Shown here: in pieces, positions 41,781 through 61,767 of the stretch
Layout: each line of letters opens with the position of its first letter
Position numbering within the stretch: position 1 is the first letter of the stretch
Source of the DNA: Stutzerimonas stutzeri
Lineage (GTDB): Bacteria; Pseudomonadota; Gammaproteobacteria; Pseudomonadales; Pseudomonadaceae
Assembly (NCBI RefSeq): GCF_024448895.1
Contig: NZ_JAMOIC010000009.1
Coordinates: forward strand, 1 to 64,000
Length of the DNA: 64,000 nucleotides
Reading direction: 5' to 3'
Translations under genes and position numbers: made by a program
Notes under the pieces: model-generated
Databases searched by the model: none
The model's input: only the letters and a program-made list of their open reading frames with translations
What the model was told of the DNA's origin: nothing

Positions 41781-41798
41781 TGTACGCTATGGCTGACA
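41781..41798 (+). promoter_or_regulatory. GacA-box-like upstream activating sequence
   Basis: TGTACG-CTATGG-CTGACA fits the GacA element TGTAAG-N6-CTTACA with one change in each arm. Its centre is about 66 bases before the predicted start of the Rsm-type RNA, the distance usual for rsm promoters. A -10-like TATGAT lies at 41843-41848. Confidence 0.65.
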
Positions 41799-41854: not shown

Positions 41855-41975
41855 CAGTAGCGCAGGACGCGCAACGAGACAGGATGCTCGAATGGACCAG
41901 CCGGCAGACGTCGGCATCAGGGACTACGGAACGACAGACACAACGCCTATAGCCCCGCCTCGTGCGGGGCTTTTT
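41855..41975 (+). ncRNA. Rsm-type regulatory sRNA (RsmX/Y/Z family)
   Basis: A gene of about 120 nucleotides with no reading frame. It carries five GGA motifs (GCAGGACG, ACAGGATG, AATGGACC, CAGGGACT, ACGGAACG) spaced along the transcript and ends in a Rho-independent terminator. A GacA-box-like element and a TATGAT -10 are upstream. Such RNAs titrate the translational repressors RsmA/RsmE/RsmN through GGA motifs in loops. The response regulator gacA is at 60916-61560 in this window, and a mobile RsmN-like gene at 51668-51874. Exact ends are estimated. Confidence 0.72.
41951..41975 (+). terminator. Rho-independent terminator of the Rsm-type sRNA
   Basis: AGCCCCGC, loop CTCGT, GCGGGGCT, then a T-run. 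Confidence 0.9.
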
Positions 41976-42479: not shown

Positions 42480-42566
42480 GCCCGGATGGCGAAATTGGTA
42501 GACGCAAGGGACTTAAAATCCCTCATCCGAAAGGGTATGCGGGTTCGATTCCCGCTCCGGGCACCA
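42480..42566 (+). tRNA. tRNA-Leu (anticodon UAA)
   Basis: 87 nucleotides with an encoded CCA. Acceptor GCCCGGA pairs with TCCGGGC. The anticodon arm is AGGGA-CTTAAAA-TCCCT (anticodon TAA). The long variable arm (CATCCGAAAGGGTATG) is that of a class II tRNA and the T arm has GGTTCGATTC. The 3' 23 bases are the attachment site of the element that follows. Confidence 0.96.
42544..42566 (+). other. attL, left attachment site of the integrated element
   Basis: The 23-base 3' end of tRNA-Leu, from TTCGATTC to CACCA, is repeated at 52158-52179 with one G missing. Confidence 0.85.
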
Positions 42567-42609
42567 AGAGCATGATTTCAGACGTCCCCATGTGAACCTG
42601 AAACCCAGT

Positions 42610-42637
42610 AAAACCGGCCTCCGTTGCCGGTTTTGTT
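42610..42637 (+). terminator. Rho-independent terminator of tRNA-Leu
   Basis: AAAACCGGC, loop CTCCGTT, GCCGGTTTT. It now lies inside the element, so the element supplies or preserves termination of the tRNA transcript. Confidence 0.8.
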
Positions 42638-42677
42638 GTATCTGGGGTCATACGAATGCATCTATACATACCATCTG

Positions 42678-42701
42678 TTTAGGGGTACGTTTAGGGGTAC
42701 G
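42678..42701. repeat. Left pair of 12-bp integrase arm-type repeats
   Basis: TTTAGGGGTACG occurs twice in tandem. The inverse CGTACCCCTA follows at 42719-42728, between the ribosome site and start codon of the integrase gene. The same pair recurs at the right end of the element (52081-52104). These are probably arm-type binding sites for the integrase, and the inverted copy may allow autoregulation. Confidence 0.65.
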
Positions 42702-42727
42702 CAGGTTCGATAATGGAGCGTACCCCT

Positions 42728-44038
42728 ATGGCGCGCACGGTCACCCCTCTTTCTGACTCAAAATGCGAAGCATCACGCCCCCGTGATAAGGACTACAAAC
42801 TGTCCGACGGCGGCGGCCTGTTCCTGCTTGTGAAGGCGAACGCGAGTAAGGTCTGGCGCTTCAAGTTCAAGCGTCCTGACGGCAGAGAAGGACTCGCTAC
42901 CTTCGGCAGCTATCCAGCAACTGGATTGAAAGCAGCCAGGGCCAAACGAGCCGAGGCGACGGAATTGCTCGCAAAGGGTATAGACCCAATCGAGCACGAA
43001 GGTCAGAAACGGATCAAGGCGGCGCAGTCATCATGCAATACCTTCAAGGCCGTTGCGCTGGAGTGGCACACGAGCATGGCCGGCAAATGGTCGAAGGGTC
43101 ACGCCACCCGTGTAATGAACGAGTCCGAAGCCGATCTATTCCCGCTGCTTGGGGACCGTCCTATCGCTGACCTCAAGACCAGCGATCTGCTGGCCGCGTT
43201 AAAGCTGGTGGAGAAGCGCGGCGCATTGGATCTAGCCGGCCGGCTGCGGCAACGCGTCGTTGGCATCATGCGAACCGGCGTCCAGCGCAACATGATCGAC
43301 TACAACCCAGCGCTTGATCTGCTGGGAGGCACCGCCACGCCGAAGACAAGGCACCGCCCTGCCCTGCCATTGGAGCGACTCCCCGAGCTGCTGGAGCGCA
43401 TCGAGGCCGACACCGGGCGGCCGCTAACCCGTCTGGCCGTACAGCTCACCTTGCAGGTATTCATCCGTTCCAGCGAGCTCCGATTTGCCCGCTGGGATGA
43501 GATCGACTTCGGCCGTTCTATGTGGATCATCCCCGGCGAGCGTAAGCCCATCGAAGGCGTGAAGCACTCGCACCGTGGCGCCAAGATGGGCACACCGCAC
43601 ATGGTGCCGCTGAGTCGCCAGGCATTTGCCACCCTGGATGCAATCAAGCCGCTTACTGGCCGCTTCGAGCTGGTCTTTGCTGGCGATCACCACCATTGGA
43701 AGCCGCTCTCGGAAAACACGGTTAACAAGTCGCTGCGCCGCATGGGCTATGACACCAAAGCGGACGTATGCGGGCACGGTTTCCGCACTATGGCTTGTTC
43801 GGCGCTGGTGGAATCCGGCTTATGGAGCCGCGACGCGGTAGAGAGGCAGATGAGCCACCAAGAGCGCAATGGCGTCCGCGCCGCTTACATCCACAAGGCA
43901 GAACACCTGGAAGAACGCCGGCTGATGATGACCTGGTGGGCGGACTACCTCGACGCCAACCGCCACCAGCACATCACGCCATATGAGTTCGCGCACCGTG
44001 GCAAAAGTGGCGCCAACGTAGTGGAGCTAAGGGCATGA
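42728..44038 (+). CDS. P4-type tyrosine integrase
   Basis: 436 residues. The N-terminal DUF4102 arm-binding domain is visible (RDKDYKLSDGGGLFLLVKANASKVWRFKF overlaps residues 20-50), followed by the SAM-like domain and the catalytic domain: Arg in IRSSELRFARWDEI, HxxR in CGHGFRTMACSAL, and the Tyr in RAAYIHKAEHLEER. It integrates and excises the element at tRNA-Leu. GGAG at 42715 fits ATG 42728 (MARTVTPLSD) better than ATG 42713. The stop overlaps the next gene by four bases. Confidence 0.95.
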   Translation: MARTVTPLSDSKCEASRPRDKDYKLSDGGGLFLLVKANASKVWRFKFKRPDGREGLATFGSYPATGLKAARAKRAEATELLAKGIDPIEHEGQKRIKAAQSSCNTFKAVALEWHTSMAGKWSKGHATRVMNESEADLFPLLGDRPIADLKTSDLLAALKLVEKRGALDLAGRLRQRVVGIMRTGVQRNMIDYNPALDLLGGTATPKTRHRPALPLERLPELLERIEADTGRPLTRLAVQLTLQVFIRSSELRFARWDEIDFGRSMWIIPGERKPIEGVKHSHRGAKMGTPHMVPLSRQAFATLDAIKPLTGRFELVFAGDHHHWKPLSENTVNKSLRRMGYDTKADVCGHGFRTMACSALVESGLWSRDAVERQMSHQERNGVRAAYIHKAEHLEERRLMMTWWADYLDANRHQHITPYEFAHRGKSGANVVELRA

Positions 44039-44658
44039 AGAAAATGAAGCCTCAGCAAACAGGCGGTGGGGTTGATGAATCCTTGCCTGAACGGTGCGTT
44101 GCGCTAATTCAGCAACTGCCTGGCGACACGAAAGAAGTCGAACGTCTTATCGGTATACGCGTGGGGCAATACCGAAGCGATTGGAAGTTTCATAAGACCA
44201 TGGCGACCAAGGCTCAGACCATCAAGCATCTTCACTCCATAGCGGATCAAGCGCAGCGATTGAATGAGTCGATCAAATTAAATCCTGAAAACGCTAGAGC
44301 AAAACTGAAGGACGTTTACCGCCTATCTCCGTGGAGGACTTCGTACAACGACATGGAATACGAGCTGGGCATATGGCTTACAAGATTGCATGTCGCCACG
44401 ACGGAAGTAGCCAAAGAATTTGAGTCGTACAGGGGTAAATCTGGAGGTCAATTGAAGAACCTCGAACGCTGGCTCCTATCAGACGTTTCAGAGCTTCTCC
44501 AGAACCACTCCAATCACCAGCTTACAGAAAAGGAAATCGTTGATTTAGCGGCAAACATCATCATTGCCGCAGGCATCGCAAACGTACCTGCGACAGAAGA
44601 AGCAGCTCACAGGGCTTTCAAGCGTTTGCAGCGCGAGGCGGCGATTCAACCTAAATAG
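44035..44658 (+). CDS. Hypothetical protein downstream of the integrase
   Basis: 207 residues, mostly predicted helix, with no membrane segment or signal. It begins MKKMKPQQTGG in an ATGA overlap with the integrase stop. Notable parts are AQRLNESIKLNPENARAKL and NHQLTEKEIVDLAANIIIAAG. I do not recognise a family. Placement suggests a role linked to integration, or simply cargo. Confidence 0.6.
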   Translation: MKKMKPQQTGGGVDESLPERCVALIQQLPGDTKEVERLIGIRVGQYRSDWKFHKTMATKAQTIKHLHSIADQAQRLNESIKLNPENARAKLKDVYRLSPWRTSYNDMEYELGIWLTRLHVATTEVAKEFESYRGKSGGQLKNLERWLLSDVSELLQNHSNHQLTEKEIVDLAANIIIAAGIANVPATEEAAHRAFKRLQREAAIQPK

Positions 44659-44733
44659 GTGCAATCACCGCACTATCTCTCAGTCATTCTCTGTGAATAA
44701 TGGGGGGCATCCAAACCAAACGGATGCTCTCAA

Positions 44734-44958
44734 ATGCTCACAAGCCACCCCAGCGTAGACCAATCTCTAATCTCCCAGACCGAAGTCTGCAAAGCCATCG
44801 GCCAAACTCGCAGCGGCCTACAAAAGCTGCGCGAGAAAGATTCAACCTTTCCCAAGCCGATCAAGTTTGGTGCCACCCGGCAATCAGCCTCGTACTACGT
44901 TGTTGCCGAGGTGAATGCCTGGCTTCGGGCCAAGATCGAAGCGAGGGACTGCGCATGA
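44734..44958 (+). CDS. AlpA-like DNA-binding regulator
   Basis: 74 residues with a winged helix-turn-helix of the AlpA/MerR-like type: LISQTEVCKAIGQTRSGLQKLREKDSTFPKPIKFGATRQS with VAEVNAWLRAKI is spread over residues 12-70. AlpA proteins activate excision or early genes of P4-like islands. The stop overlaps the next gene (ATGA). Confidence 0.8.
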   Translation: MLTSHPSVDQSLISQTEVCKAIGQTRSGLQKLREKDSTFPKPIKFGATRQSASYYVVAEVNAWLRAKIEARDCA

Positions 44959-45239
44959 AAAAGGCCGCCCCGGCGAAGGAAAGCGGCCTGCACAACATGC
45001 ACGCCGATTATAACCATCACCACATCAACGACCACCGTCAGTTCTTCATCGAACAGGTGTTGCCGCTCATCGTCGGTTATGCCCGCAAGAGCAGCGCCCC
45101 GTCTGATGATGTGATCCTCGTTTCTTTTCTCAGCCTCTCGACGATCTTGCAAGTAAGAGGCTTCAGCCGCGCCACGCTAATAACTACTGTCGATGCTTCG
45201 CGCCTTCCGATTCACACCGCGCCGGAGGGTTTGCAATGA
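44955..45239 (+). CDS. Small element protein of unknown function
   Basis: 94 residues, His-rich near the start (LHNMHADYNHHHINDHRQFF), then a hydrophobic helix (ILVSFLSLSTILQV). Both ends overlap neighbours by four bases (ATGA), showing translational coupling. No family recognised. Confidence 0.55.
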   Translation: MKKAAPAKESGLHNMHADYNHHHINDHRQFFIEQVLPLIVGYARKSSAPSDDVILVSFLSLSTILQVRGFSRATLITTVDASRLPIHTAPEGLQ

Positions 45240-45685
45240 ATGAACTTGCCCCGGTCTGCGCCCAGAGGTATTGTCTGCCCGTCGCTGCAAAATCAGCGAC
45301 CTGGATTGGCGTCCTGAATTCCAAGGCGGACACACCGCCTAACGAGCGGTTTTTTTGTGTCCGCAACATGGCTAGTCCTTTATGGGCGGGCCGTGTGGGG
45401 AGCATTCGTGCTCAGCAGCCCTTGGACTGCCACGCCAACCTGCACGGTTCCGCCCTCCATGATTGGCGTCATGGCCGCGGAGTTTTAAGCCGCTATCCAA
45501 GGACTACCACCATGACAATCCGTCATACCCTTACCCTCAATCCGTCCAAATCCCACGCTGCCGCCTGGAAGGCCCGCGCGTTCGCTGCCCTGCGCGCTGA
45601 TTCAAGCCTGGCTGTACGTCTGCGCCGATATAACTTGGCCATGGAGCGTGCCCGCGCTCTGGAAGCCGAAGGAGGTGCGCAATGA
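45236..45685 (+). CDS. Ash/Icd-like protein (P4-type leader region)
   Basis: 149 residues. The centre (WIGVLNSKADTPPNERFFCVRNMASPLWAGRVGSIRA, residues about 23-60) matches the conserved part of phage Ash and host-division-inhibitor Icd-like proteins found ahead of P4-type replication genes. An in-frame ATG at 45512 with AAGGA upstream would give a separate 57-residue basic peptide (MTIRHTLTLNPSKS), so this frame may hold two products. A terminator hairpin lies inside it at 45331-45357. Confidence 0.55.
   Translation: MNELAPVCAQRYCLPVAAKSATWIGVLNSKADTPPNERFFCVRNMASPLWAGRVGSIRAQQPLDCHANLHGSALHDWRHGRGVLSRYPRTTTMTIRHTLTLNPSKSHAAAWKARAFAALRADSSLAVRLRRYNLAMERARALEAEGGAQ
45281..45300 (+). promoter_or_regulatory. 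Stem-loop in the satellite leader
   Basis: GTCGCTG, loop CAAAAT, CAGCGAC: a perfect 7-bp stem about 30 bases before a terminator hairpin. P4-like elements use structured leader RNA of this kind for immunity by premature termination. Confidence 0.45.
45331..45357 (+). terminator. Intragenic terminator in the Ash/Icd-like leader
   Basis: ACCGC, loop CTAACGA, GCGGT followed by seven T, with outer arms GACACA/TGTGTC able to extend the stem. It lies within an open reading frame upstream of the replication genes, so it probably acts as an attenuator. Confidence 0.6.
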
Positions 45686-45936
45686 TTCCCCGCACTTCTG
45701 AAAGCATCGCGGCCGACGCCATCGAATCGATTGGTTTCGGTGAGCAGCACACCCGCTGGCTGTCTGCTTTGATGGTCGCTATCGACGCCGATATCACTCG
45801 CGGTTACGGCCTCAAGGCGAAGGATCTGGCCAGCCTGGGTCAGTACCTGGCTGACGAAGGCGCTAACTACCTAGAGCGTGAGCGTCAAAGGCTCGAGCAA
45901 GAGCTCAGCGCCGCCCGCAACCAAGCCGGGGAGTAA
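45682..45936 (+). CDS. Small element protein of unknown function
   Basis: 84 residues, start overlapping the previous stop (ATGA) with GGAGG upstream. Helical, ending in a short coiled coil (LERERQRLEQELSAARNQ). Positioned just before the primase-like gene; no family recognised. Confidence 0.55.
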   Translation: MIPRTSESIAADAIESIGFGEQHTRWLSALMVAIDADITRGYGLKAKDLASLGQYLADEGANYLERERQRLEQELSAARNQAGE

Positions 45937-45939
45937 CCC

Positions 45940-46860
45940 ATGAAAAACAAAAACAGCGCCCATGCGCTGAAGGGATCGCTCGGCCTTGAAAAACCCGAGC
46001 TGGCTTTCCGAGACGCGATGCAGGCCGCGTTCGGACCGCTTAATTGGTTACCGATCGCTGACGGGGACATACACCGCTTCCGCGTACCGGAGGACAAGCC
46101 AGGCACGCAAAACGGATGGTACGTCCTGTACCTGGACGGCATCGCCTCCGGGGCATTCGGCAGCTGGAAGGCTAACGGCTCGCACACCTGGAGCAGCCGC
46201 AAGCCTGCCGATCCGTTTGAGGCCGACTTGATCCGCCAGCGCACCGAGCAAGCCCGGCGCCAGCGGCAGACCGAGCAGCAGCAGCGCCAGCAGACCGCCG
46301 CGATCGAGGCGCAGCGCCTATGGAGCACCGCCGCCCCGGCTGATTTGGGCCACCCCTACATAATCCGCAAGGGCTGCCAGCCGCACAACCTGCGCCAGCG
46401 GGGAACGTTACTGCTGGTGCCGCTGTATCTGGACCGCGTGCTGGTGAATTTGCAACGCATCACTATGGACGGCTCCAAGCGGTTCCTGTCTGGTGGGCGA
46501 GTAAAGGGCTGCTATTCACCCATCGGCGTGCTGGCGGCCGGTGCGCCTCTCTACCTTTGCGAAGGCTGGGCAACGGGCGCCACCATCCACGAGCACAACG
46601 GCGCCGCCGTGGCTTGTGCAATGAATGCCGGCAACCTGCTGGAAGTCGGGCAACAACTCCAACGTCAGTACCCGGAAAACCCGCTGATCGTAGCTGGCGA
46701 TGACGACCGCCAGACCGAGGGCAACCCCGGCCGCGCTGCCGCCAACCATGCTGCCGCCATGCTCGGCTGTGGCGTGGTATTCCCGCCCTGGAGCGGGGCC
46801 GAACCCCTGAGCCTCTCCGACTTCAACGACCTGCGCCAATGGCGGGAGGCCCACCCATGA
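45940..46860 (+). CDS. TOPRIM domain primase-like protein
   Basis: 306 residues. The N-terminal part fits a primase-associated beta-rich module (NGWYVLYLDGIASGAFGSWK), followed by a Gln/Arg-rich coiled coil (about 95-125) and a TOPRIM domain with Glu in PLYLCEGWATGATIH and Asp pair in NPLIVAGDDDRQTEGN. It probably synthesises primers for replication of the element. It overlaps the DUF3987 gene (ATGA). Confidence 0.8.
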   Translation: MKNKNSAHALKGSLGLEKPELAFRDAMQAAFGPLNWLPIADGDIHRFRVPEDKPGTQNGWYVLYLDGIASGAFGSWKANGSHTWSSRKPADPFEADLIRQRTEQARRQRQTEQQQRQQTAAIEAQRLWSTAAPADLGHPYIIRKGCQPHNLRQRGTLLLVPLYLDRVLVNLQRITMDGSKRFLSGGRVKGCYSPIGVLAAGAPLYLCEGWATGATIHEHNGAAVACAMNAGNLLEVGQQLQRQYPENPLIVAGDDDRQTEGNPGRAAANHAAAMLGCGVVFPPWSGAEPLSLSDFNDLRQWREAHP

Positions 46861-48497
46861 CCACGGCGCTTGTTCCACCTCACAGCTATCCAGAGCCGCA
46901 GCCACTACTGCCCGGCTTGGAAACCGCCGCACCCTATCCAATTGAAGAACTTGGTGAACTGCTGGGTGGCGCTGCCGCCGCCATCGTCGAAGCCGTGCAG
47001 GTGCCCGACGCCCTCGCCGCACAGTCCGTCTTAGCCGCAGCTGCAATGGCAGCACAACCGCACGCAAATGCCCGACGCGCTGGCCAGCTGATCCCACTGT
47101 CGCTGTTTTGCCTGACCGTAGCCGAATCTGGCGATCGCAAGTCGGCAGCTGACAGGCTGGCGCTGCGTGCGCATCAAGAGCGCCAGCGCGATCTGCTGGA
47201 GAAGTCGGGGCCAGAAATGAAACAGTACCGGGACTATCGGGACGCTTATCAGAAGGCCCGCACCGTGACACTCGAGAAGTGTAAAGGCGATCCGGAGACC
47301 GTCGCCGCTGAGCTGGCAAAACTGGTGGAGCCCGAAGCACCAGCGCTGCCATTTATCCTTGCCGAAGAGCCAACCCTGGAAGGCCTGCAAAAGTCACTGC
47401 TGCGCGGGTACGCCTCGCAAGGACTGTTCAGCGATGAGGGCGGCCAGTTCTTCGGGGGCCATGCCAGCAAGCCTGAAAACATGCTCAAGAGCGCAGCCGG
47501 CCTGTCCAAGCTGTGGGACGGTGCGCCAATTACCCGCACACGCGCCGCCGAAGGCGAAAGCGCATCGCGCAGCGGCTGCCGTCTGAGCGCACACCTAATG
47601 ATTCAGCCCATCGTCGCGCAAGAGGTGCTGGTTAATCCGGTCATGCAGGGGCAGGGCTTTCTGGCTCGGTTCCTTATCGCATGGCCTCAGTCGCTGGCGG
47701 GAACCCGTTTCTATCGGGACAGCGACCCCACCAAGGACAGGCGGCTTGGACTGTACTGGAAGCGCATGGCCTCGTTGCTGGCGCTTGAGCCGCCCATGAA
47801 TGAACGGGGAGAGTTGGAGCCGCCCGCCCTGCCCTTAGACCAACAGGCACTGGACGCTTGGATTGCCACGCATGACGCCATTGAGGCTGGGCTAGGAAAC
47901 GGCGGTGATCTGCAAGAGATCAAGCCGACCGCCGCCAAGGGTGGTGAAAACGTGCTGCGCATCGCTGGTGTGCTGGCGGTGGTGGAAAATGCCGGCGCAA
48001 TTACCCTTCCCATTGTCGAGCGTGCCGCCATGCTGGTGCGGTGGTATCTGGCAGAGGCCTTGCGTTTGACCAACCCGGCCAAGGCTGAACCCCGTTTGCA
48101 AAAGGCGCAGCAGCTGCTGGACTGGCTGCTCGTCCATGACTGGAAAAGCTTCGAGGCCAGGCGCTTGCAACGGGAAGGTCCGCGCTTCGCTCGCAAGAGC
48201 TCCAAGCAGCGGGACGAACTGCTTGCTGTCCTGCTAGAGCATCACCAACTGCTGAGTGTTGACGGCAAGAACTTCAGAATCAACCCGATGGCGACAACGG
48301 CGACAACCACGGGGTGGCAAGGCTTGAATCGTGGCGACACTCTGGCGACGGATGGCGACACCCCAACCATCCCCAGCCCCTTGTCGCCACCTGTCGCCAA
48401 GGCGTCGCCGGAGTCACCGCTGCGTAATACGGCGTGTGTCGCCACTGTCGCCACTGTCGCCACTGTCGCCACGCCAAGTGATTTCGAGGACTTCTAA
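46857..48497 (+). CDS. DUF3987 (YfjI-like) replication-associated protein
   Basis: 546 residues. LPLSLFCLTVAESGDRKSAADRLAL holds a Walker A-like GDRKS, and SDEGGQFFGGHASKPENMLKSAAGLSKLWDG with RSGCRLSAHLMIQPIVAQEVL follows, as in DUF3987 proteins that sit next to primases in prophages and satellites. Probably a helicase-like ATPase. The C-terminus is low-complexity, encoded by a 9-bp tandem repeat (ATVATVATVATPS). Start in ATGA overlap with GGGAGG. Confidence 0.8.
   Translation: MTTALVPPHSYPEPQPLLPGLETAAPYPIEELGELLGGAAAAIVEAVQVPDALAAQSVLAAAAMAAQPHANARRAGQLIPLSLFCLTVAESGDRKSAADRLALRAHQERQRDLLEKSGPEMKQYRDYRDAYQKARTVTLEKCKGDPETVAAELAKLVEPEAPALPFILAEEPTLEGLQKSLLRGYASQGLFSDEGGQFFGGHASKPENMLKSAAGLSKLWDGAPITRTRAAEGESASRSGCRLSAHLMIQPIVAQEVLVNPVMQGQGFLARFLIAWPQSLAGTRFYRDSDPTKDRRLGLYWKRMASLLALEPPMNERGELEPPALPLDQQALDAWIATHDAIEAGLGNGGDLQEIKPTAAKGGENVLRIAGVLAVVENAGAITLPIVERAAMLVRWYLAEALRLTNPAKAEPRLQKAQQLLDWLLVHDWKSFEARRLQREGPRFARKSSKQRDELLAVLLEHHQLLSVDGKNFRINPMATTATTTGWQGLNRGDTLATDGDTPTIPSPLSPPVAKASPESPLRNTACVATVATVATVATPSDFEDF
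48438..48472 (+). repeat. 9-bp tandem repeat in the end of the DUF3987 gene
   Basis: GTCGCCACT is repeated 3.9 times and encodes Val-Ala-Thr units. Because the unit is a multiple of three, copy number can change without a frameshift. Confidence 0.85.
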
Positions 48498-48498
48498 T

Positions 48499-48834
48499 AT
48501 GGCCGCCCTTGACTACTTGCAAATGGAAGGGTTGGCCGCCGAACTGAAAGGGGGGCGCCTTCGCGTCACCCCGGCAAGCCGCATCACCGACAACCATCGG
48601 CAGTACCTGTGGCAGCACCGCGCCGAATTGCTAGCCGAGCTAGCGGCAAACGACGCGCTAACACCGGAGCAAATTGGCTGGCTTGCTTCTGTCGCGTCAT
48701 GTCTCGGAGTGAGCACTGGCCATTTGCTTGAGCGGGGCTTTATCGACCGGCACGACCTGGTGGAGCAAATCGCTGCCGATCCACATCAGGTTGCCGCGCT
48801 CATCAAGAGCGATCCGAGGTGGTACCAATCCTGA
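48499..48834 (+). CDS. Protein with TubC-like N-terminal docking domain
   Basis: 111 residues. The first 50 (MAALDYLQMEGLAAELKGG, RLRVTPASRI, LWQHRAELLAEL) match the TubC N-terminal docking fold that is found in phage and island replication genes as well as in synthetases. The rest is helical. A start at 48499 has GAGGAC in front and directly follows the DUF3987 stop. Perhaps a partner of the replication proteins. Confidence 0.6.
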   Translation: MAALDYLQMEGLAAELKGGRLRVTPASRITDNHRQYLWQHRAELLAELAANDALTPEQIGWLASVASCLGVSTGHLLERGFIDRHDLVEQIAADPHQVAALIKSDPRWYQS

Positions 48835-48853
48835 CCGAAACGGAGATCAATGC

Positions 48854-49084
48854 ATGAGCATTGTCGAGGCTGAGATAAGGGAGCGGTTGCAACAAATGAA
48901 TGTCGTGCCACTTATTGGCGGGCTCATACCGGAGCAAGCCACAGCGATGCTGCTTGGCTATTCCCCCGAGTACATGAGGCGGCAGGCATCAAAGGGGTTA
49001 TCGCCGCTCCCTTACGTCCAGCGGGCCAACCGTCGCTTTTACCGGATAGAGGATATCGAAAGGTTCGCGACGGAAACCGTATAA
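48854..49084 (+). CDS. Small putative DNA-binding protein
   Basis: 76 residues. LIGGLIPEQATAMLLGYSP followed by EYMRRQASKGLSPLPYVQRANRRFYRIEDIERFA has the helix-turn-helix-wing layout of excisionase/AlpA-like proteins. ATG 48854 has CGGAGAT upstream. May be a second regulator or excisionase of the element. Confidence 0.6.
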   Translation: MSIVEAEIRERLQQMNVVPLIGGLIPEQATAMLLGYSPEYMRRQASKGLSPLPYVQRANRRFYRIEDIERFATETV

Positions 49085-49174
49085 ACCCGGACTTATTGAC
49101 ACCCTTGTTCGCATGACCTGGCGCGCTCCGGCTCGTACCGTGAGTCCATTAAATGAACGAATCAGGAGTGCCAA

Positions 49175-50299
49175 ATGAGTGCGACAGCGCAGATGGAAAC
49201 GTTGATTAATGGCGTGAAGGAAGCCACCGACGTCGTTAAGGCTAGCGCCCAAGAGGTTAAGCAAATCAAAACCCAGCTTGGAGAGCTAGAACAGGAATTT
49301 GCCCGTATCCCTTCGGGCGGATTCAAAGTTGCTCGTCTAGAGTCGAATCCTGTAGCCACAGCGGTTGTTGACGGCGATGCCTTGTCTAGCGTCCGTACCG
49401 GCAGTCCATCTACCGGTAAGATCACTACCGAGTTCGGGCTCCGCGCGGCACTGAGCAATCCTGACAGCGGCCAGGCAGGCGATACCGTTTACCCGACGCC
49501 AACCCTGCGTGCCCCCGGCGTCCAGGGAATGCCAGCCGTCCGCCTGAGCATTCTTGATCTACTTCCCGTTGTGAAAGTAAACGAGCGAACCTATGAGTTC
49601 GTAGTGCTGGATAACTACATCAACGCTGCCGATTACCAGATCGTTGAAGGCGACGTTAAGGCGCAAACCGACCTGCCCACCAAGCTAGCCCGTGCGGAAG
49701 TCGCGACTATTGCCCACTGGCTGCCGGCGAGCCTGCAAGTGCTGGACGACAATGCCGGTCTGCAAAATCTTATCGGCCAGGTTCTATCAGTCGGCTGCCG
49801 TCAGAAGCTTGAGCATGAGGTACTGGTCGGCGCAGGTGGTGACGGCCGAATCTTAGGCATCGTGCCGCAGGCTGTAGCGTTCACGACTACCGCAACCAGC
49901 GCCGCTGACCGCGTCGGTTATGCGATCACCGATCTGTCGGCGGCCGGTTGGAGTGCTAACGCCGTGGTGATGAATCCCGTGGACTGGTTCGCTGTGGCCA
50001 GCACTCGTGCCGAAGGGGGCGATGGCCAATACATCCTTGGTTCTCCCCGAGATCCGTCCCCGGCTGGCCTGTGGGGGGTACCCGTTGTAGTAAGCCCATC
50101 GATGCCGGCCGGTCAGGCTCTGGTAATGGATACATCGATCACTGCCTTGCTCGATCGTCAGCAGGTTTCGGTCCAGCTTAGCCGCCATGACAGCGATAAC
50201 TTCCGCCGTAACCTGGTGACAATTCTCGCCGAGCTGCGAGCTGGCCTGGCGCTGTATGCGCCCAGCGCAACACGCCTGGTAACTCTGGCCGTGGCATAA
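49175..50299 (+). CDS. HK97-type phage major capsid protein
   Basis: 374 residues. N-terminal delta/scaffold-like coiled coil (MSATAQMETLINGVKEATD to ELEQEFARIP, residues 1-45), then the mature HK97 fold with the N-arm, E-loop (TYEFVVLDNYINAADYQIVEGDVKAQTD) and the typical end of the A and P domains (WGVPVVVSPSMPAGQALV, VTILAELRAGLALYAPSA). AGGAG precedes ATG 49175. It is the only virion gene in the element. It may form small capsids or interfere with helper-phage assembly. Confidence 0.88.
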   Translation: MSATAQMETLINGVKEATDVVKASAQEVKQIKTQLGELEQEFARIPSGGFKVARLESNPVATAVVDGDALSSVRTGSPSTGKITTEFGLRAALSNPDSGQAGDTVYPTPTLRAPGVQGMPAVRLSILDLLPVVKVNERTYEFVVLDNYINAADYQIVEGDVKAQTDLPTKLARAEVATIAHWLPASLQVLDDNAGLQNLIGQVLSVGCRQKLEHEVLVGAGGDGRILGIVPQAVAFTTTATSAADRVGYAITDLSAAGWSANAVVMNPVDWFAVASTRAEGGDGQYILGSPRDPSPAGLWGVPVVVSPSMPAGQALVMDTSITALLDRQQVSVQLSRHDSDNFRRNLVTILAELRAGLALYAPSATRLVTLAVA

Positions 50300-50313
50300 G
50301 TCAGGGGGTTGGC

Positions 50314-50493
50314 ATGAACGATGACCAGGAAACAAACAAGGCGCTTAGGGAATTGCTGAGCACGTTCCATGCTATCGCGCAGCGAGAGCGGATTCGGTCA
50401 CGCATAAACGAGCTATTGGCTAAAGGACGTTCACCCGAGCAGGTGCTCGACTCGCTGAAGATGAACCCGCCAGTGCTCTACCCGAAGTTCTAA
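50314..50493 (+). CDS. Small protein after the capsid gene
   Basis: 59 residues: MNDDQETNKALRELL to NPPVLYPKF, soluble and helical, 14 bases after the capsid stop, with GGGGG as a possible ribosome site. Too short for a domain call. Might be a capsid partner. Confidence 0.5.
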   Translation: MNDDQETNKALRELLSTFHAIAQRERIRSRINELLAKGRSPEQVLDSLKMNPPVLYPKF

Positions 50494-50793
50494 TCAGCCG
50501 TCGCCGGAACGGTCCACTGCGCGAATCATCCGGCCCTGGGTAAAGTCGTGAGTCACCAGGTCATGAAAGAACCGCGACAGCCTGCGCAGCACTTCAAAAC
50601 CTCGGTAGCAAGCTGATAGCAAAGCTGGTGGCAGGCACCTTCTCGCGCTCGAAGGGAGGGGGTGGGTTTAGAGTTCCCAGCCTCCATCTACATGACCCCT
50701 CGGCCCCCTTTGCGCACATTCCCGCGAAAAACCGACCGGGGGTCAACATAGATTCCTAGTTTGCGATCGCCTGCCACTGCCTTAAGAACGGAG
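50494..50793. other. Gap after the capsid genes
   Basis: A minus-strand frame whose stop (50494-50496) directly abuts the previous stop codes for FFHDLVTHDFTQGRMIRAVDR. A GTG start preceded by GAGG would give about 31 residues. Otherwise nothing recognised. Confidence 0.25.
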
Positions 50794-51417
50794 CTAGTTT
50801 ACTGCCATGTCCAGCAATCTACGCTCGATAACTCCTTTCGAGTAACAAGTAATACCATCAGATGAATATGGCTGCTTAGTGGAAAAATTAAACTCGAATT
50901 TATCTTGACCAGCCGGTGCTCCGCCTGCCAAAGCCGCATAACTCACCGTTACAGGCAGGACGTATTTACCATTGACGCTGACCAACGTTCCGTCACCTTC
51001 CGGTGCTATATAGATATTCACTCGGCCACTTACCTCGGTCTTGCGGTTCGCATGGAAAGCGTGATGCTGAGGGTTGGTGATGATGAACCTCGCGCTGTCT
51101 GCGGCTTCATATTCGAAAGTCTGTTTACCGCGCGCATTGTCAAAGGTCCTGCGAGAACGGCCGCAGTCCACATATTCGCTTGGTTTACTGCTAGAAAATG
51201 AAAGGTTCATGAGGCGCGAATCTTTATCAATGTTATTGATGACAAAAAAATCGCTACTCGCCTGCCGAACTAAGTTATTCCAAACAACTTCGAATGGCTT
51301 GTTTATATGGCGGCTATTCTCGAAAGCCTGCTTTGCTGGAGGCGTGTAGTCTTGGGTGGAGGTAGCACAACCTGTGACCGACATTGCAAAAACAACAATG
51401 CTAAGCGCTTTTTGCAT
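50794..51417 (-). CDS. Putative lipoprotein in the satellite
   Basis: 207 residues with a type II signal (MQKALSIVVFAMSVTGCATS; lipobox VTGC). The mature part is mixed alpha/beta (KPFEVVWNNLVRQASSDFFVINNID). No named family recognised. It is divergent to the replication and capsid genes, so it may be expressed in the integrated state. A surface lipoprotein of this kind could act in exclusion, but that is a guess. Confidence 0.65.
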   Translation of the reverse strand: MQKALSIVVFAMSVTGCATSTQDYTPPAKQAFENSRHINKPFEVVWNNLVRQASSDFFVINNIDKDSRLMNLSFSSSKPSEYVDCGRSRRTFDNARGKQTFEYEAADSARFIITNPQHHAFHANRKTEVSGRVNIYIAPEGDGTLVSVNGKYVLPVTVSYAALAGGAPAGQDKFEFNFSTKQPYSSDGITCYSKGVIERRLLDMAVN

Positions 51418-51504
51418 ACCAATATCCATACATTAAAGAAATGACATGATAGCTATATGCCATCAACATCTGAAGCAGGCTTTTGAAACGTTTCCTATGG
51501 TGCA

Positions 51505-51667
51505 TCAAAAAAGACTTCGATGCCGAACGCGGAGATGCACGACCGGCGCCCGCTTGTGCTTTCTGCCGAATGCGCAGCACATTGGCTGACCCTGAGCTGG
51601 GCTCGAGCGAGGCCGAAAATATCAACGGTTCTGTCGGAAGGGGCCCCATCGGCGAGCACGCCAACCA
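51505..51667 (+). pseudogene. Frameshifted remnant of a SOS-response-associated peptidase (SRAP/YedK)
   Basis: One frame reads TPNAEMHDRRPLVL-like residues (visible MPNAEMHDRRPLVLSAECAA), resembling the SRAP segment with the conserved HDR(M/R)P motif. The adjacent frame continues LADPELGSSEAENI, similar to the next part of SRAP proteins. A frame change near 51575 joins them, and no N-terminal catalytic Cys is present. The remnant runs into the RsmN-like gene on the other strand. Confidence 0.4.
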
Positions 51668-51874
51668 TCAAGCCTCTTCGAGTTCCGATCGTAGTATCTG
51701 CAGATCAGCTGGTGCCTCAATAGCAATCTTAGCGCGGCTGCCATCGATGTCTTTCAGCTTGATCGTGATCCCGTCCAGCAACAGCTGGGCCAGTAGATCC
51801 TCAGCATCGGTGCCTGGCTGAACGCGCAGGGTAATGCGTTGGCCTTCTTTGCGGGTAAGTACTAGGTAACTCAT
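51668..51874 (-). CDS. RsmN/RsmF-type CsrA-family RNA-binding protein
   Basis: 68 residues. MSYLVLTRKEGQRITLRV is the CsrA N-terminal strand with conserved Leu and Arg8, and KIAIEAPADLQILRSEL is the C-terminal RNA-binding strand with Arg62. A helical insert (TDAEDLLAQLLLDG, residues 22-35) between them is the mark of Pseudomonas RsmN/RsmF and not of RsmA, in which the key Arg is residue 44; RsmN also has it at 62. It should bind GGA motifs in mRNA or Rsm sRNA. AAGGAAG lies before ATG 51874. It is inside the element, 280 bases from attR. Confidence 0.85.
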   Translation of the reverse strand: MSYLVLTRKEGQRITLRVQPGTDAEDLLAQLLLDGITIKLKDIDGSRAKIAIEAPADLQILRSELEEA

Positions 51875-52080
51875 GTGGTCGCTTCCTTGCGGTAGTCGTG
51901 ATGGGCCACTCATATTATCAGCAGGCCCTATTAAGTGAGCTGCCCTGAACGCCATGATGTGACATGGCTATCATTGCCGCGATGGGGTACCCATCTCGTA
52001 GTTCGGGCCTACGGAGATAAGAGTAAACGGGGCGTTAAGCTTTCTTTAAGCTCTAGCATCTAAGGCAGGTTGTCTTTTGT

Positions 52081-52104
52081 TTTAGGGGTACGCTTAGGGG
52101 TACG
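52081..52104. repeat. Right pair of integrase arm-type repeats
   Basis: TTTAGGGGTACG and CTTAGGGGTACG in tandem repeat the left-end pair at 42678-42701. They lie 53 bases inside attR. The rest of 51875-52407 apart from attR has no recognisable gene. Confidence 0.65.
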
Positions 52105-52157
52105 GATGAGGAATAACCCGGGCTAAATCCCGTATCCACTGCTTCCTAGGTGGTAAA

Positions 52158-52179
52158 TTCGATTCCCGCTCCGGCACCA
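52158..52179 (+). other. attR, right attachment site
   Basis: TTCGATTC to GGCACCA repeats the tRNA-Leu 3' end with a G missing (CCGGCACCA against CCGGGCACCA). Upstream bases do not continue the tRNA. Confidence 0.85.
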
Positions 52180-52407
52180 GTATCTATGCCGCTTGCAGCG
52201 ACTGCTTCTAGAACACTCCCCTCTTTCCGAATCTAAATTCGGACACGGTCTAAGCCGTCCCGCTCAATTCCTGCCCTTTTTCCAAATAGATATTGTTGCG
52301 GTATTCGCAGAGCAGCCCCCGTTTGTTGAACTCGGCAACTGCGTAACTATCGGGGCGGCTTTGGCACCTTTTGGCACCTACTGAAAAGTAACAGCGGTCT
52401 TGTCGCG

Positions 52408-52845
52408 CTACCCTTCGTCGAGGTCATTCGTGACGGACAAGGTGCCAATGTTGAAACCGATAACGGAGTCTAGCTTTCCTCGCCATAGCACTCCTCGGGT
52501 GGTGGGAATCAGGTGATTGCCAGCTAATAGATAAGCATCCTTGAGATGAATAAATACTGGCGAAAGGGGCTCCGCATTATCGGGCAGCGGCCTGATATAG
52601 CGCTCCTTCCACTGGTCCGCAATGCTGCTGAAATGCTCATGGTCTTCATCGCTAAGGACGAGCGCCATTTCCGTCTTTTGCATTTCCAGGTATTCGGAGC
52701 CTCCAATAAGCGTACCGCTAACCAACCCTGCCCCGGTCGTTAATGTCAGCCCTACATGCAAGCCGTGGTTGGCGTACTCCACTAGCGTTTGCAGAAACCA
52801 ATCGCAGTCATTCGATTTCAACTGCTGCAGTTCGTCGTCAGTCAT
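52408..52845 (-). CDS. GvpU-like small protein
   Basis: 145 residues starting MTDDELQQLKSNDCDWFLQ. The pattern DWFLQTLVEYANHGLHVGLTLTTGAGLVSGTLIGGSEYLE (residues 14-53) fits the family annotated as gas vesicle accessory GvpU, which is widespread in bacteria lacking gas vesicles. No other gas vesicle gene is present, so the name does not give a function. GAGGAG precedes ATG 52845. First host gene beyond attR. Confidence 0.6.
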   Translation of the reverse strand: MTDDELQQLKSNDCDWFLQTLVEYANHGLHVGLTLTTGAGLVSGTLIGGSEYLEMQKTEMALVLSDEDHEHFSSIADQWKERYIRPLPDNAEPLSPVFIHLKDAYLLAGNHLIPTTRGVLWRGKLDSVIGFNIGTLSVTNDLDEG

Positions 52846-53082
52846 TGCGCTCTCCTCAGGTGAGATACCTAGAAGGAGGCTAGCACAGCACTGTGTTGCC
52901 ACCGTTTGTTATGGCCCCGGCCGGACTTTTTGACGGCAAATCGCGCATAAATGCGTTATTTCACGTCATGTGGCTCGCTTCGATGGGCAGAAGGATGTTG
53001 CTGCTTCATGCCAGCATGGCGGACCGATTGATCCAGCCCGCCTTCGCTGGTCAGAGGGTCGCCACGCCACGCCGCTGCTTGA

Positions 53083-54321
53083 CTACGCAACCTTCGCCGA
53101 TGCCGGTAGCTTGACTGGGCGCTGCTCCCGAAAGGCGACCAGGAACGTCAGCAGCACTCCGAGCGCAAACACAGCTGGGAACAGCCAGATGCTTTGCCAG
53201 TCATGTGCGCCGGCCGTTGCGAAGTGGTCGGTGACCTTTCCGGCAACCCAGAACCCGATCAGCATTCCCACGCCATAGGTTGCCAAGGTAATGAGCCCTT
53301 GCGCTGAGCCTTTGAAGGTCTCGCCCGCCTTGGCGTCGGTATAGATCTGCCCGGAGACGAAGAAGAAGTCATAGCAGATGCCATGCAGTGCGATACCGGC
53401 CACCAGCATGAACAGCAGATCACCATTATTGCCATAGGCGAACATGGCGTATCGAAGCGACCAGGCAAGCATGCCTATCAACAGGGTTTTCTTGATGCCG
53501 AAGCGCTGGATGAACAACGGCAGTAGCAGCATGAACAGCACTTCCGAGATCTGTCCGAGGGTCATTTTTCCAGTCGGATTATCGACGCCGATTTCGGCGA
53601 GGAAGGGATTCGCGTTTTGATAATAGAAGGCCAACGGAATGCAGATCAGCACCGAGGCCAGAAAGAAGATCGCGAAGCTCCGGTCCTTCAACAGCTTGAG
53701 TGCATCGAGCCCGAGCATCTCTTTGATTCCGCCCTGGCCGCGCCTGGCCAGCGGCGGAGTACTTGGCAGGCTGAAACTGTAGAAGCCAAGTAGCGCAGAG
53801 GCGATAGCGCACATCAGAAAGGTGTTTTTCAGTGCTCCAGCGGCGATCGCCTGCTGAGCATCCCAGCCAAACAGAAAACTGATTACCAGCCCGGCAACAA
53901 TCCAACCTACCGTGCCCCACACCCGGATCCTGGCGAACTCCTGTCCGGGGTCACGCATCTGCCGAAACGCTACAGCGTTCACCAGCGCCAAAGTCGGCAT
54001 GTAGATGATCATGTAGCCAAGCACATAAGGATAAAAAGCGGCGAAATCACTCGCCCGGTAAAGCTGGAACAGCAGGACTGCCCCGACCATATGGAGGATC
54101 GCCAGCAAGCGTTCAGCATTGAAGTAGCGGTCAGCCACCAGCCCAATCACAAACGGGGCCAGGATCGCGCCCCAGGACTGAGTGGAGAACGCCATGCCTA
54201 TCTGACTGCCGTTGGCGCCCAGATTATTAGCCAGAAAAGTGCCGAGAGTAACGAACCATCCGCCCCAGATGAAGAACTGCAAAAACATCATCAGGCTCAG
54301 CCGTACATTGAGTGTGCTCAT
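53083..54321 (-). CDS. MFS transporter, nucleoside:H+ symporter-like
   Basis: 412 residues, 12 transmembrane helices. The start LSLMMFLQFFIWGGWFVTLGTFLANNLGANGSQIGMAFSTQS is typical for the NupG/XapB group. NPFLAEIGVDN and LHGICYDFFFVSGQIYTDA also fit. Although the group is named for nucleosides, such permeases often lie beside TIM-barrel and Gfo/Idh/MocA sugar genes. It is the last gene of the LacI-controlled cluster and likely imports its substrate. Confidence 0.85.
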   Translation of the reverse strand: MSTLNVRLSLMMFLQFFIWGGWFVTLGTFLANNLGANGSQIGMAFSTQSWGAILAPFVIGLVADRYFNAERLLAILHMVGAVLLFQLYRASDFAAFYPYVLGYMIIYMPTLALVNAVAFRQMRDPGQEFARIRVWGTVGWIVAGLVISFLFGWDAQQAIAAGALKNTFLMCAIASALLGFYSFSLPSTPPLARRGQGGIKEMLGLDALKLLKDRSFAIFFLASVLICIPLAFYYQNANPFLAEIGVDNPTGKMTLGQISEVLFMLLLPLFIQRFGIKKTLLIGMLAWSLRYAMFAYGNNGDLLFMLVAGIALHGICYDFFFVSGQIYTDAKAGETFKGSAQGLITLATYGVGMLIGFWVAGKVTDHFATAGAHDWQSIWLFPAVFALGVLLTFLVAFREQRPVKLPASAKVA

Positions 54322-59095: not shown

Positions 59096-60916
59096 CTACT
59101 CACTGTGCAGAGTGGCATAAATCAACTCCGCAAGCTTTTTACTGATCCCAGGCGCCTTGGCGATTTCATCGAGACTCGCGCGGCAGAGTTCTTGAAGACC
59201 GCCAAAGTGCTTGAGCAGTTCGCGACGGCGCTTCGGGCCGATGCCCGGGACGCCTTCCAGCGTCGAGGTAGTCCTGGCTTTTCCTCGTCGTGCACGGTGA
59301 CCGGTAATGGCGAAACGGTGCGCCTCGTCGCGCACCTGCTGAATCAGGTGCAGCGCCGGTGAATCGCCCGGAAGCGTGAACTCATGCGCTGCGTCGTTCA
59401 GATACAGGGTCTCCAGGCCGGGCTTGCGCGTAACGCCCTTGGCCACGCCCAACAGAATCAATTCGGGGACTGCGAGCTCCTGCATCACGTCGCGAGCCAT
59501 GTTCAACTGCCCCTTGCCGCCGTCTACCAACAGGATGCCCGGAAGCTTGCCCTCCCCGTCGGCAGCCTTCTTGAAGCGTCGTGAAAGTGCCTGGTGCATC
59601 GCTGCGTAATCGTCGCCTGCAGTCACGCCCTCGATGTTGTAACGGCGGTAATCGGACTTCAATGGTCCTTCCGGTCCAAACACCACGCAAGAGGCAACCG
59701 TGGCCTCGCCACTTGAATGGCTGATATCGAAGCATTCGAGGCGAGTCGGAATCTCATCCAGATGGAGCGCCTCGGCCAAGGCCTGGAAGCGTGCGGCGAG
59801 ATGTTGCCTGTTCGCCAATCGCGCCCCCATGGCCTGTTCTGCGTTGGTGAGCGCAAGCTGCTGCCAACGTGCACGGGTACCGCGGACACGATGCGTGATC
59901 GTCAGCTCGACGTCGCGCAGCTCGTCAATGGCACTGATCAACGTTTCGAAATCTTCATGGACCGCATTGACGATCAGTTCGGCAGGCAACTCGCGCTCGA
60001 CCGAGCTGAGGTAGTACTGCTCAAGGAACGCCTGAAGCACGTCGCTGACGCTTTCTTCGATGGCGACCTGTGGGAAGAAATTCTTGCTGCCTAGCACCCG
60101 TCCGCTGCGCACGCTGATCAGATGGACGCAAGCACCACCGGGGCTCACCACCGCCGCGACGATATCGACGTTGCCGGTGCCGCCCTCCATGCTTTGCTGG
60201 TCCTGTACCCGGCGCAGGATGCCGATCTGGTCGCGAATCTCCGCAGCGCGCTCGAAATCGAGCGCCATCGCGGCCTTTTCCATGTTTTTCGAAAGCTCTT
60301 CGGCTAGCGCATTGCTACGGCCTTCCAGAAACATCACCGAGTGACGAACGTCTTCGGCGTATTCCTCGGCACTGACCAGGTTGACGCACGGCGCCTTGCA
60401 GCGCTTGATCTGGTACTGCAAGCAGGGTCGGGTGCGATTGCGGTAGTAGCTGTCCTCGCACTGGCGCACAAAGAAGGCTTTCTGCAGAAGGCTCAGGCTC
60501 TCTCGAATCGCTCCGGCGCTGGGATACGGGCCGAAGTAGCGCCCCTGACCTTTCTTCGCGCCACGGTGAATGCTGAGCCGTGGAAAGTCACCGCTCGAAA
60601 GAAACACATAAGGGTATGACTTATCGTCGCGCAGCAGGATGTTGTAGGGCGGGCGCCATTGCTTGATGAGCGTTTGCTCAAGCAACAATGCTTCGGTTTC
60701 ATTGGCTGTGATGGTGGTCTCGACCTGCGCGATCCTGGCCACCAATGCTGCGGTCTTCGGCGCCTGCCCGACCTTGCGGAAGTAACTCGCCAGTCGCTTC
60801 TTGAGGTTCTTCGCCTTGCCGACATACAGCAGCTTGGCATCGGCGTCGAACATCCGGTAGACACCGGGTCGCCCGCTACAGGAAGCAAGAAATGCAGAGG
60901 AGTCGAAGCCGCTCAT
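59096..60916 (-). CDS. uvrC: UvrABC system protein C (excinuclease subunit)
   Basis: 606 residues. N-terminal GIY-YIG nuclease ([28 protein letters not shown]), Cys-rich [18 protein letters not shown] helix pair ([24 protein letters not shown]), RNase H-like C-terminal nuclease ([32 protein letters not shown]) and helix-hairpin-helix tail ([21 protein letters not shown]). It makes both incisions in nucleotide excision repair. Its ATG shares one base with the gacA stop. Confidence 0.97.
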
Positions 60917-61560
60917 CAATTGATGGTGTCGACCATGCCGTGGCGTACCGCCAGTAGCGCCAGCTCCACGTCGCTGCTGACCGAGAGTTTCTCGTAAATA
61001 CGGTAACGGTAAGTATTGACGGTCTTCGGCGACAGGCACAGCTTGTCAGAGATCGTCTGGACCTTCTGGCAGTTGGCGATCATCAATGCAATCTGGATCT
61101 CGCGCTCGGACAGCAGATCGAAAGGTGAGCCATTAACCTTGGGCTGGAATGATTTCAACGCCAGCTGCTGCGCGATCTGCGGGCTGATATAACGCTGCCC
61201 GGCGAAAACCATGCGGATTGCCTGAACCATTTCATCGAGGGCAGCCCCCTTGGTCAGGTATCCGGCGGCGCCCGCCTGCAGGAGGCGAGTCGGGAACGGA
61301 TCTTCTTCGCAGATCGTGACCGCAATGACCTTGATGTCAGGGTGACTGCGCAGGAGTTTGCGGGTCGCTTCGAGGCCCCCGATTCCTGGCATTTTGACGT
61401 CCATCAGCACGACGTCCGGCTTCAGTTCACGCGACTTCTTGATCGCGGACTCGCCGGATTCCGCCTGACCGATAACCTGCAGGCCATCGATGTCGGCGAG
61501 CATTCGGGATATGCCTGTGCGTACCAGATCGTGGTCATCGACCACCAGCACCCTAATCAA
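60916..61560 (-). CDS. gacA: GacA response regulator
   Basis: About 214 residues. Receiver domain with [17 protein letters not shown], phospho-acceptor Asp in [12 protein letters not shown], conserved Lys in [13 protein letters not shown]-terminal LuxR-type HTH ([43 protein letters not shown]). Very close to Pseudomonas GacA. I chose TTG 61560 (MIRVLVVDD), which has GAGGTG upstream and matches known GacA N-termini; ATG 61587 would add nine residues. It activates rsm sRNA genes through TGTAAG-N6-CTTACA elements such as that at 41781. Confidence 0.95.
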
Positions 61561-61767
61561 GCAGACACCTCTTTTGTGCAAATTCAAAGCTGGCTGGCTG
61601 CTCGCTTCAATAAGCGGCGAACTCTAACAAAAACTCAGCGCCTTACCCAGACCATACGTCTAAAGCTGGCCATGTGACATCAAGCGCACCGGCAATGCCT
61701 GGCATTTCGTATGAACGGCACAGCCTCAATGCAAGTCTGACTCATTGATCAACATAGTCCCCAATCA

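Follow-up and report, generated by a model that had tools for sequence, protein, structure and literature searches.

In this study, we describe a 64,000-nucleotide stretch of Stutzerimonas stutzeri DNA (the window) in which an rsmN-type gene is carried as cargo by a phage satellite and, on comparative evidence, is a member of a mobile RsmN lineage shared with temperate phages. The comparisons suggest that the satellite and the phages carrying RsmN plug into the host Gac/Rsm control circuit. The reading that we favour, with middling confidence, is that translation of this cargo regulator would be gated by a host Rsm protein at the rsmN leader and that its product would feed back on the Rsm pool.

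The satellite element and its cargo

Judged by its genes and attachment sites, the element bearing rsmN is a capsid-carrying P4/PICI-like satellite with exact ends at 42544-52179. Its features are as follows.

42480..42566, plus strand: tRNA-Leu(TAA), the last 23 nt of which (42544-42566) are the attL core
42678..42700, plus strand: left copy of paired TTTAGGGGTACGTTTAGGGGTAC repeats (TTTAGGGGTACG-type), putative integrase arm-type sites
42713..44038, plus strand: integrase (Pfam/PHROG), with a 93% identical copy in the sister satellite L154
44734..44958, plus strand: AlpA-like regulator (Pfam 17.4 bits, below the cut-off of 21; PHROG 66, E 6.6e-5)
45268..45460, plus strand: c4-a1b1 target, isrK-type RNA and C4 antisense RNA, P4/P22-type immunity
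45940..46860, plus strand: Toprim primase (Pfam/PHROG), own replication gene
46839..48497, plus strand: DUF3987 helicase (Pfam/PHROG), own replication gene
49175..50299, plus strand: HK97-type major capsid protein (Pfam/PHROG)
50794..51429, minus strand: putative lipoprotein of 211 aa (assigned by inspection), second cargo gene in the stretch from the capsid gene to attR
51668..51874, minus strand: rsmN-type gene encoding P0001, a 68-aa ORF with Pfam, PDB and alignment matches
51880..51891, minus strand: CGC-AAGGAA-GCG, possible Rsm hairpin over the rsmN Shine-Dalgarno sequence, 5 nt before the ATG
52081..52103, plus strand: right copy of the same paired repeats, putative integrase arm-type sites
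52158..52179, plus strand: attR core TTCGATTCCCGCTCCGG-CACCA, with one G missing

The preliminary description had placed rsmN inside attL-attR, and this position holds, with the tRNA-Leu (42480-42566) on the left and the attR core (52158-52179) on the right. The element resembles P4-like satellites and capsid-carrying PICIs in its integrase at a tRNA gene, its candidate AlpA-like regulator, its primase and helicase, its C4-type RNA (45.3 bits for the C4 antisense RNA, against a gathering threshold of 45) and its HK97 capsid protein. The major capsid protein is the only capsid-morphogenesis gene among the scanned ORFs, a set that leaves out some small ORFs. The sister satellite L154 has in addition protease-like and small-terminase-like ORFs (by inspection), neither of which was recognised in the window satellite. 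No match to the 211-aa putative lipoprotein was found in Pfam, PHROG or PADLOC, and no near match to the satellite DNA in INPHARED. A match to the Proteo-phage-1 RNA (50498-50582; 39.8 against a gathering value of 42, E 1.7e-4) lies between the capsid gene and the cargo.

From comparison with related genomes, the window rsmN is satellite cargo and not an ancestral rsmN, because it sits between the capsid gene and attR, and neither the empty sites nor the sister satellite carry it. The left flank of the satellite matches 49 of the 56 genomes of the genus and the right flank 12 of them, and the two matches adjoin in G049 and G055. At the empty site of G049, the flank matches (93% and 96%) are 183 nt apart and the tRNA gene is intact; the bases that follow attR in the window, CACCAGTATC, are those that follow the intact tRNA in this genome. 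The same arrangement is found in G055, with flanks at 82% and 81%. Neither of these congeneric empty sites holds rsmN. The sister satellite L154 of G021 sits at the same tRNA-Leu (primase 66%, capsid 47% and attR end 78% identical) and lacks rsmN at the corresponding attR end. At E 1e-4, no RsmN was found anywhere in G021 or G049, and G055 has one elsewhere. The preliminary description had proposed a mobile RsmN-type gene, and the ancestral rsmN that we looked for at this site in element-free strains was not found: an ancestral chromosomal rsmN at the satellite site is ruled out by the two empty sites and by the sister element without the gene.

Outside attR, a further 0.9 kb or so, up to 53060-53084, likewise differs from G049 as well as from G055. 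This strip (52185-53060), absent from both empty-site genomes, holds a 164-aa ORF (52408-52902), a relative of which lies near phage tail genes in L036.

The RsmN protein

P0001 belongs to the CsrA family (PF02599, 43.9 bits for a cut-off of 27), and within it stands closer to RsmN/RsmF than to RsmA/RsmE-type chains. Its nearest solved structures are RsmF (4k59) and RsmN (4kji), matched at E ~1e-11 over residues 1-67, whereas RsmA-type PDB chains are matched at E 0.028 or worse, in two alignment pieces that flank an 18-residue insert. Identity with P. aeruginosa RsmN/RsmF is 43%. The RsmN-type assignment had previously been drawn from the insert and from Arg62 together. The insert does separate RsmN from RsmA; Arg62 does not discriminate between them, because it is the equivalent of Arg44 of RsmA, and its change to Ala cuts binding more than 1,000-fold according to PMC3791407. 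It is invariant in the 20 RsmN proteins of alignment A1, P. aeruginosa RsmF included. Among the RNA-contact residues, L4, L6, A54, I60 and R62 are retained in P0001, and three positions are altered (V58 to L, R49 to K and R56 to A). A single-sequence AlphaFold model has the order b-b-H-b-b-b, but with a pLDDT of 57 it is too poor for a fold search.

The RsmN protein is maintained by selection, as judged from dN/dS values of 0.05-0.15 in 14 of 15 pairs, those with a finite value. The value is 0.09 for the window gene against the prophage copy of its own genome, in a set where dS exceeds 1 in all 11 window pairs, with one saturated, and where two of the 11 pairs involve L003 and L014, neither of them in a clear mobile context. 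A search of the own genome at E 0.1 gave four genes of the CsrA family. One is RsmA-like (90.9 bits), and the other three are RsmN: the window gene itself, a copy on C3 (85% identical) and a copy on C6 (73%). The pairing of the window gene with the own prophage copy has a support of only 85/46 in a tree built on 68 columns that leaves 22 of its 50 inner branches open. The region upstream of the window rsmN gave no sigma-70-like promoter.

A mobile RsmN lineage

The census of related genes indicates that the window rsmN is a member of a mobile RsmN lineage that includes temperate phages. In the 56 genomes of the genus, 19 carry RsmN-like genes, 25 in total with the window gene (E 1e-4 or better). 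Sixteen of these, spread over 13 genomes, share 55-100% identity with the window protein, and the other nine 39-51%. We sorted the 16 close genes by their neighbours, through clustering of ORFs from fetched stretches. Twelve, including the window gene, lie in this satellite or in prophage-like loci: seven behind a CI-type repressor (L005, L029, L033, L034, L038, L039, L040; L034 was assigned through the identical contig L081), four in a prophage cargo region with umuDC (L030, L031, L032, L041) and one in the satellite. The remaining four (L006, L035, L036, L037) have no clear mobile context. Phage character was assigned from annotated examples with a terminase, a tape-measure protein, an integrase and a RecE-like exonuclease.

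Over 398 genomes of the family, 61 were matched at E 1e-8; all matches of at least 95 bits lie in this genus, and the next one scores 80.7. Nine named RsmN loci comprise six from Stutzerimonas, two from Pseudomonas and one distant locus from Gimesia (39%). In IMG/VR, 17 distinct contigs carry RsmN. Eleven have it behind a CI/S24-type repressor on the same strand, four are of the umuDC phage type (L051, L057, L059, L060, with umuDC near rsmN in L059 and L060), and of the last two, L058 has no assigned context and L082 is chromosome-like. For five of 13 loci in other genera (L091, L092, L096, L102, L103), rsmN precedes umuD- or umuC-like ORFs, and in L094 it follows a CI-like remnant and an endonuclease-I-like ORF (inspection and BLAST). 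A search of 50,697 phage records (INPHARED) with P0001 gave no match at E 0.01, while the host RsmA matches 85; P0001 had no match in PLSDB, and the L083 RsmN none in INPHARED. Viral scans confirmed none with the L092 RsmN and gave no additional contigs with A3.

The viral contig L051 has two rsmN copies 1.1 kb apart (6906-7109 and 8001-8204), with a nuclease gene between them and BstA after the second. At L033 15204, a short degenerate RsmN-like ORF that kept its CGC-AAGGAC-GCG leader lies beside an intact rsmN. The RsmN of L057, L059 and L060 have a different N-terminus (MSSVEI), with L4 and L6 replaced by V and I, and no leader hairpin.

Association with CI-type repressors and neighbouring genes

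A CI-type repressor gene stands upstream of rsmN on the same strand in 16 distinct loci, counted after dropping one of each identical or near-identical pair (L029/L054, L055/L056, L034/L081). The distance from the repressor stop to the rsmN ATG is 24-33 nt in nine of them and 154-294 nt in three; the gap is 574 nt in one, about 875 nt in two and 2042 nt in one, these four all with intervening ORFs. The repressors were confirmed by PHROGs/Pfam in L039, L055, L081, L085 and L042 and by BLAST in L083-L085, and the others were assigned by clustering. This adjacency occurs in three RsmN branches, since it is also found in L083/L084 (about 47% identical to P0001) and, by the tree, in L042. Phage copies of rsmN often stand in line directly behind the CI repressor gene, and for this reason these copies are probably made in the lysogen. 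This is not directly transferable to the satellite, as its rsmN is not behind a repressor gene.

The genes that adjoin mobile rsmN vary among loci. They include BstA in L051 (E 2.7e-118), RexA in L059 (E 5.8e-35), PDC-S42 in L038 and L084, a Zeta toxin in L030, a Gp49-like protein and its HTH partner in L076, HipA_2 with DUF3037 in L035 and HipA_2 in L079, with below-cut-off HipA-like matches in L029/L054. A defence- or toxin-type match (E 0.01) in the next gene or genes was obtained for 10 of 19 distinct mobile loci, six of them better than 1e-10, a count made without a control set. The scan of these 19 loci used Pfam, PADLOC or both and included the window, which gave none; L035 was not counted as mobile, and L031, L032, L040, L041, L052 and L085 lay outside the scan. 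We consider the defence and toxin genes beside mobile rsmN as a lead. PADLOC also gave PDC-M66B matches in L035 and, weakly, in L054, and HipA-like kinase genes are found near rsmN in three arrangements.

A broader and somewhat improbable proposal is that in temperate phages of the Pseudomonadaceae RsmN would be a standing part of a lysogeny operon, cI-rsmN-(variable defence/toxin module), comparable to lambda cI-rexAB. It would couple the lysogenic immunity cargo to the host Gac/Rsm state, and satellites would have borrowed the gene.

The rsmN leader

In the window, the possible hairpin CGC-AAGGAA-GCG covers the Shine-Dalgarno sequence of rsmN. The comparison covered 52 distinct RsmN leaders (54 minus the distant Gimesia hit and the degenerate ORF). 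Of the 52, 36 have a stem of three or more Watson-Crick pairs that closes a loop of 4-7 nt containing the Shine-Dalgarno GGA, and 16 have no 3-bp stem. Shuffling of the arms gave a mean of 7.6 and a maximum of 15 (500 trials). Stems of at least 4 bp are found in 12 of the 52, against a mean of 1.8 and a maximum of 6 (500 trials). These comparisons are generous, since five of the 52 leaders offered several GGAs to the observed count and only one to the null, and the leaders share ancestry and are not independent. The stems differ between RsmN branches (CGC/GCG, GAAA/TTTC, CGAAA/TTTCG, GGAA/TTCC, GGCAC/GTGCC, CGCA/TGCG and TGC/GCA), which argues for pairing rather than for a frozen sequence. The stricter pattern GC-ANGGA(N)-GC occurs in 34 of 54 RsmN leaders; among other genes of the same loci whose Shine-Dalgarno sequence is of the ANGGA form, it occurs in 4 of 117. 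In the window, no gene besides rsmN has such a leader by the strict scan. The leader hairpins of clusters 3 and 34 overlap plain Shine-Dalgarno sequences.

None of the three leaders that were folded is clearly more stable than its own shuffles. The minimum free energy fold of the window leader prefers other pairs and lacks the hairpin (z 0.28); in L083 the fold includes the hairpin, but its shuffles fold more strongly (z 1.71).

PMC8395346 reports for P. aeruginosa that translation of RsmN/F is repressed by RsmA and that one site suffices for RsmA while RsmN/F requires two. The 60 nt upstream of the window rsmN contain one GGA; the host RsmA is thus the likelier reader of this leader. A primer for PAO1 rsmN given in PMC3791407 implies AAGGACGCGGAAC-ATG, which agrees with the window leader in loop start and 3′ arm; the primer does not include the 5′ arm.

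The host Gac/Rsm neighbourhood

Two host features flank the element.

41856..41973, plus strand: host Rsm-type sRNA, outside the element, weak match to RsmY (RF00195)
60916..61587, minus strand: host gacA (by inspection), adjoined by uvrC-like and pgsA-like ORFs

The preliminary description had proposed that the satellite may tap the host Gac/Rsm cascade, in part from the closeness of these genes. One form of this proposal finds backing in the Shine-Dalgarno GGA hairpin sequence of the window leader, which recurs in RsmN leaders and is what one would expect in a target of Rsm proteins. Proximity is another matter: the sRNA is a host gene whose position is independent of the element, because it is conserved beside the tRNA-Leu in both empty-site strains (95% in G049 and 85% in G055), and 7 of the 16 close RsmN genes lie behind CI-type repressors elsewhere. 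The nearness of the satellite rsmN to the sRNA and to gacA, which is 8.7 kb from attR, therefore looks incidental from the gene order of related strains.

The sRNA scored 26.6 bits with RF00195, below the gathering threshold of 57 (E 2.3e-4). Its first hairpin, GCGCAGGACGCGC, recurs in two RNAs on C5 of the own genome and nearly so at C9:172508; the true RsmY match of this genome is on C2 (77.5 bits, with GCGTAGGGAAGCGC). A GacA-box-like TGTACGctatggCTGACA with two mismatches lies at 41781-41798, and over the window the GacA-box pattern with up to three mismatches was found 11 times against 10.25 expected, which is chance level.

An element with its own decoy sRNA was also considered and rejected, as no Rsm-type RNA was found in 42500-52200 at E 0.5. 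The prophage loci L005, L033 and L031 gave none at E 0.1. In L037, an rsmN (9358-9558) lies 2.1 kb from an Rsm-type sRNA match (11667-11784, 39.4 bits) that looks, by eye, almost identical to the own-genome RNA at C9:172508; the own C9 has flanks collinear with L037 and a similar sRNA, but no rsmN. L006 has a weak Rsm-type RNA match (26.5 bits, E 0.017) 7 kb from rsmN.

A proposed role for the satellite RsmN and its alternatives

We propose the following sequence of events for a cargo regulator gated by the host. First, rsmN, which encodes a predicted RNA-binding dimer, lies between the capsid gene and attR and is missing from the empty sites and from the sister satellite. Second, by comparison, its lineage appears common to temperate phages, where rsmN often comes directly behind the CI repressor gene and in line with it. 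Third, leader conservation and the P. aeruginosa case suggest that host RsmA on the Shine-Dalgarno GGA hairpin would keep translation low, until GacA-driven sRNAs titrate RsmA and RsmN can be produced. Finally, the added RsmN would enter the Rsm pool and bind GGA-hairpin mRNAs and sRNAs. This may damp the carrier cell's Gac response or reshape it in favour of the element.

It is also conceivable, though rather unlikely, that RsmN serves the element itself by controlling how mRNAs of the element, of a helper phage or of lysogeny cargo are translated, the cargo being neighbouring genes for small exported proteins, toxin-antitoxin systems or phage defence. Similar Shine-Dalgarno hairpins are found on the nuclease gene beside rsmN in L031 (GCGC-AAGGAA-GCGC), on a small ORF after the repressor in L053 and L055 (CGC-A[AG]GGAG-GCG) and on the gene before rsmN in L029 (CAG-AAGGAA-CTG), and the neighbours of rsmN include BstA (L051), RexA (L059), PDC-S42 (L038, L084), Zeta toxin (L030) and HipA_2-type proteins (L035, L079, weak in L029). 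However, the window has no second gene with such a hairpin, the rsmN neighbours vary, and only 4 of the 18 distinct hairpin matches on genes other than rsmN adjoin it, the others being scattered, so that chance is possible. Direct control of the downstream genes through GGA enrichment was rejected, as the 150 nt after rsmN contain 57 GGAs against about 45 expected (24 loci), which is not convincing.

That rsmN is a passive passenger with little effect, picked up by chance as cargo turned over downstream of cI and near attR, is clearly unlikely in view of the low dN/dS (0.05-0.15), the recurrent leader hairpin and the cI adjacency across three RsmN branches. Such a passenger would nonetheless fit the varied neighbours and the degenerate second copy in L033, and both the stretch near cI and P4-like satellites are described as cargo hot spots (PMC9122126, PMC12894663). 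Very unlikely is a decoy or mixed-dimer modifier that reduces host Rsm activity rather than adding to it: R56 is missing in P0001, and host regulation is taken over by the plasmid protein RsmQ, whose interaction with the Rsm proteins of the host was examined (PMC9928087), but the main contact residues are retained, and mixed dimers are unlikely because RsmN is described without the domain-swapped dimer of RsmA (PMC3791407).

If the host-gated reading is true, phages and a satellite would have adopted the one branch of the CsrA family that a 2020 survey saw as a chromosomal partner of RsmA, and the leader would let the host Rsm state gate their RsmN. Phage immunity regions would then be tied to a global RNA-binding network, with a testable route from lysogeny to altered secondary metabolism, motility and biofilm choice. 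Direct tests are feasible because the cI-rsmN junctions and the leader hairpin are small.

Relation to known mobile Rsm proteins

The Rsm protein RsmQ is encoded by a Pseudomonas plasmid that we take to be pQBR103. Like the satellite RsmN, it is a mobile Rsm protein acting on the host network; it differs in being plasmid-borne and in its model, which resembles the host Rsm proteins with RsmN as the exception (PMC9928087). The window protein is closest to RsmN/RsmF of P. aeruginosa (4k59, 4kji), with which it shares the best structure match, the insert, Arg62 and, in the leader, the loop start and 3′ arm. P. aeruginosa rsmN is chromosomal, at PA5183-5184 (PMC3791407), whereas the window rsmN is on a satellite. 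For the aeruginosa, stutzeri, oleovorans and oryzihabitans branches, the survey in PMC7366521 treats RsmN as the partner of RsmA. It also reports a possible genomic island of P. mendocina NBRC 14162 in which rsmN lies near an integrase downstream of a tRNA gene; this single case, unusual according to its authors, is likened to ours by description (PMC7366521).

Phage-borne CsrA proteins are already known: PMC7366521 lists the CsrA genes of P. aeruginosa phages as RsmM, with RsmD and RsmL suspected. Carriage by a satellite and the cI-rsmN arrangement look new, as neither a cI-rsmN operon nor a satellite with a csrA-type gene was found in titles and abstract openings of the open-licence papers that our searches gave. 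RsmM of phages phi297 and AUS531phi resembles the present case as a CsrA-family gene on temperate phages, but it is of RsmA type with a C-terminal extension (PMC7366521). A CI-like repressor gene of the same strand stands 2.9 kb before the RsmM gene of phi297, with several genes between them, two on the opposite strand. On its other side, the RsmM gene precedes genes for a PD-(D/E)XK nuclease and RecT, and AUS531phi is alike on that side.
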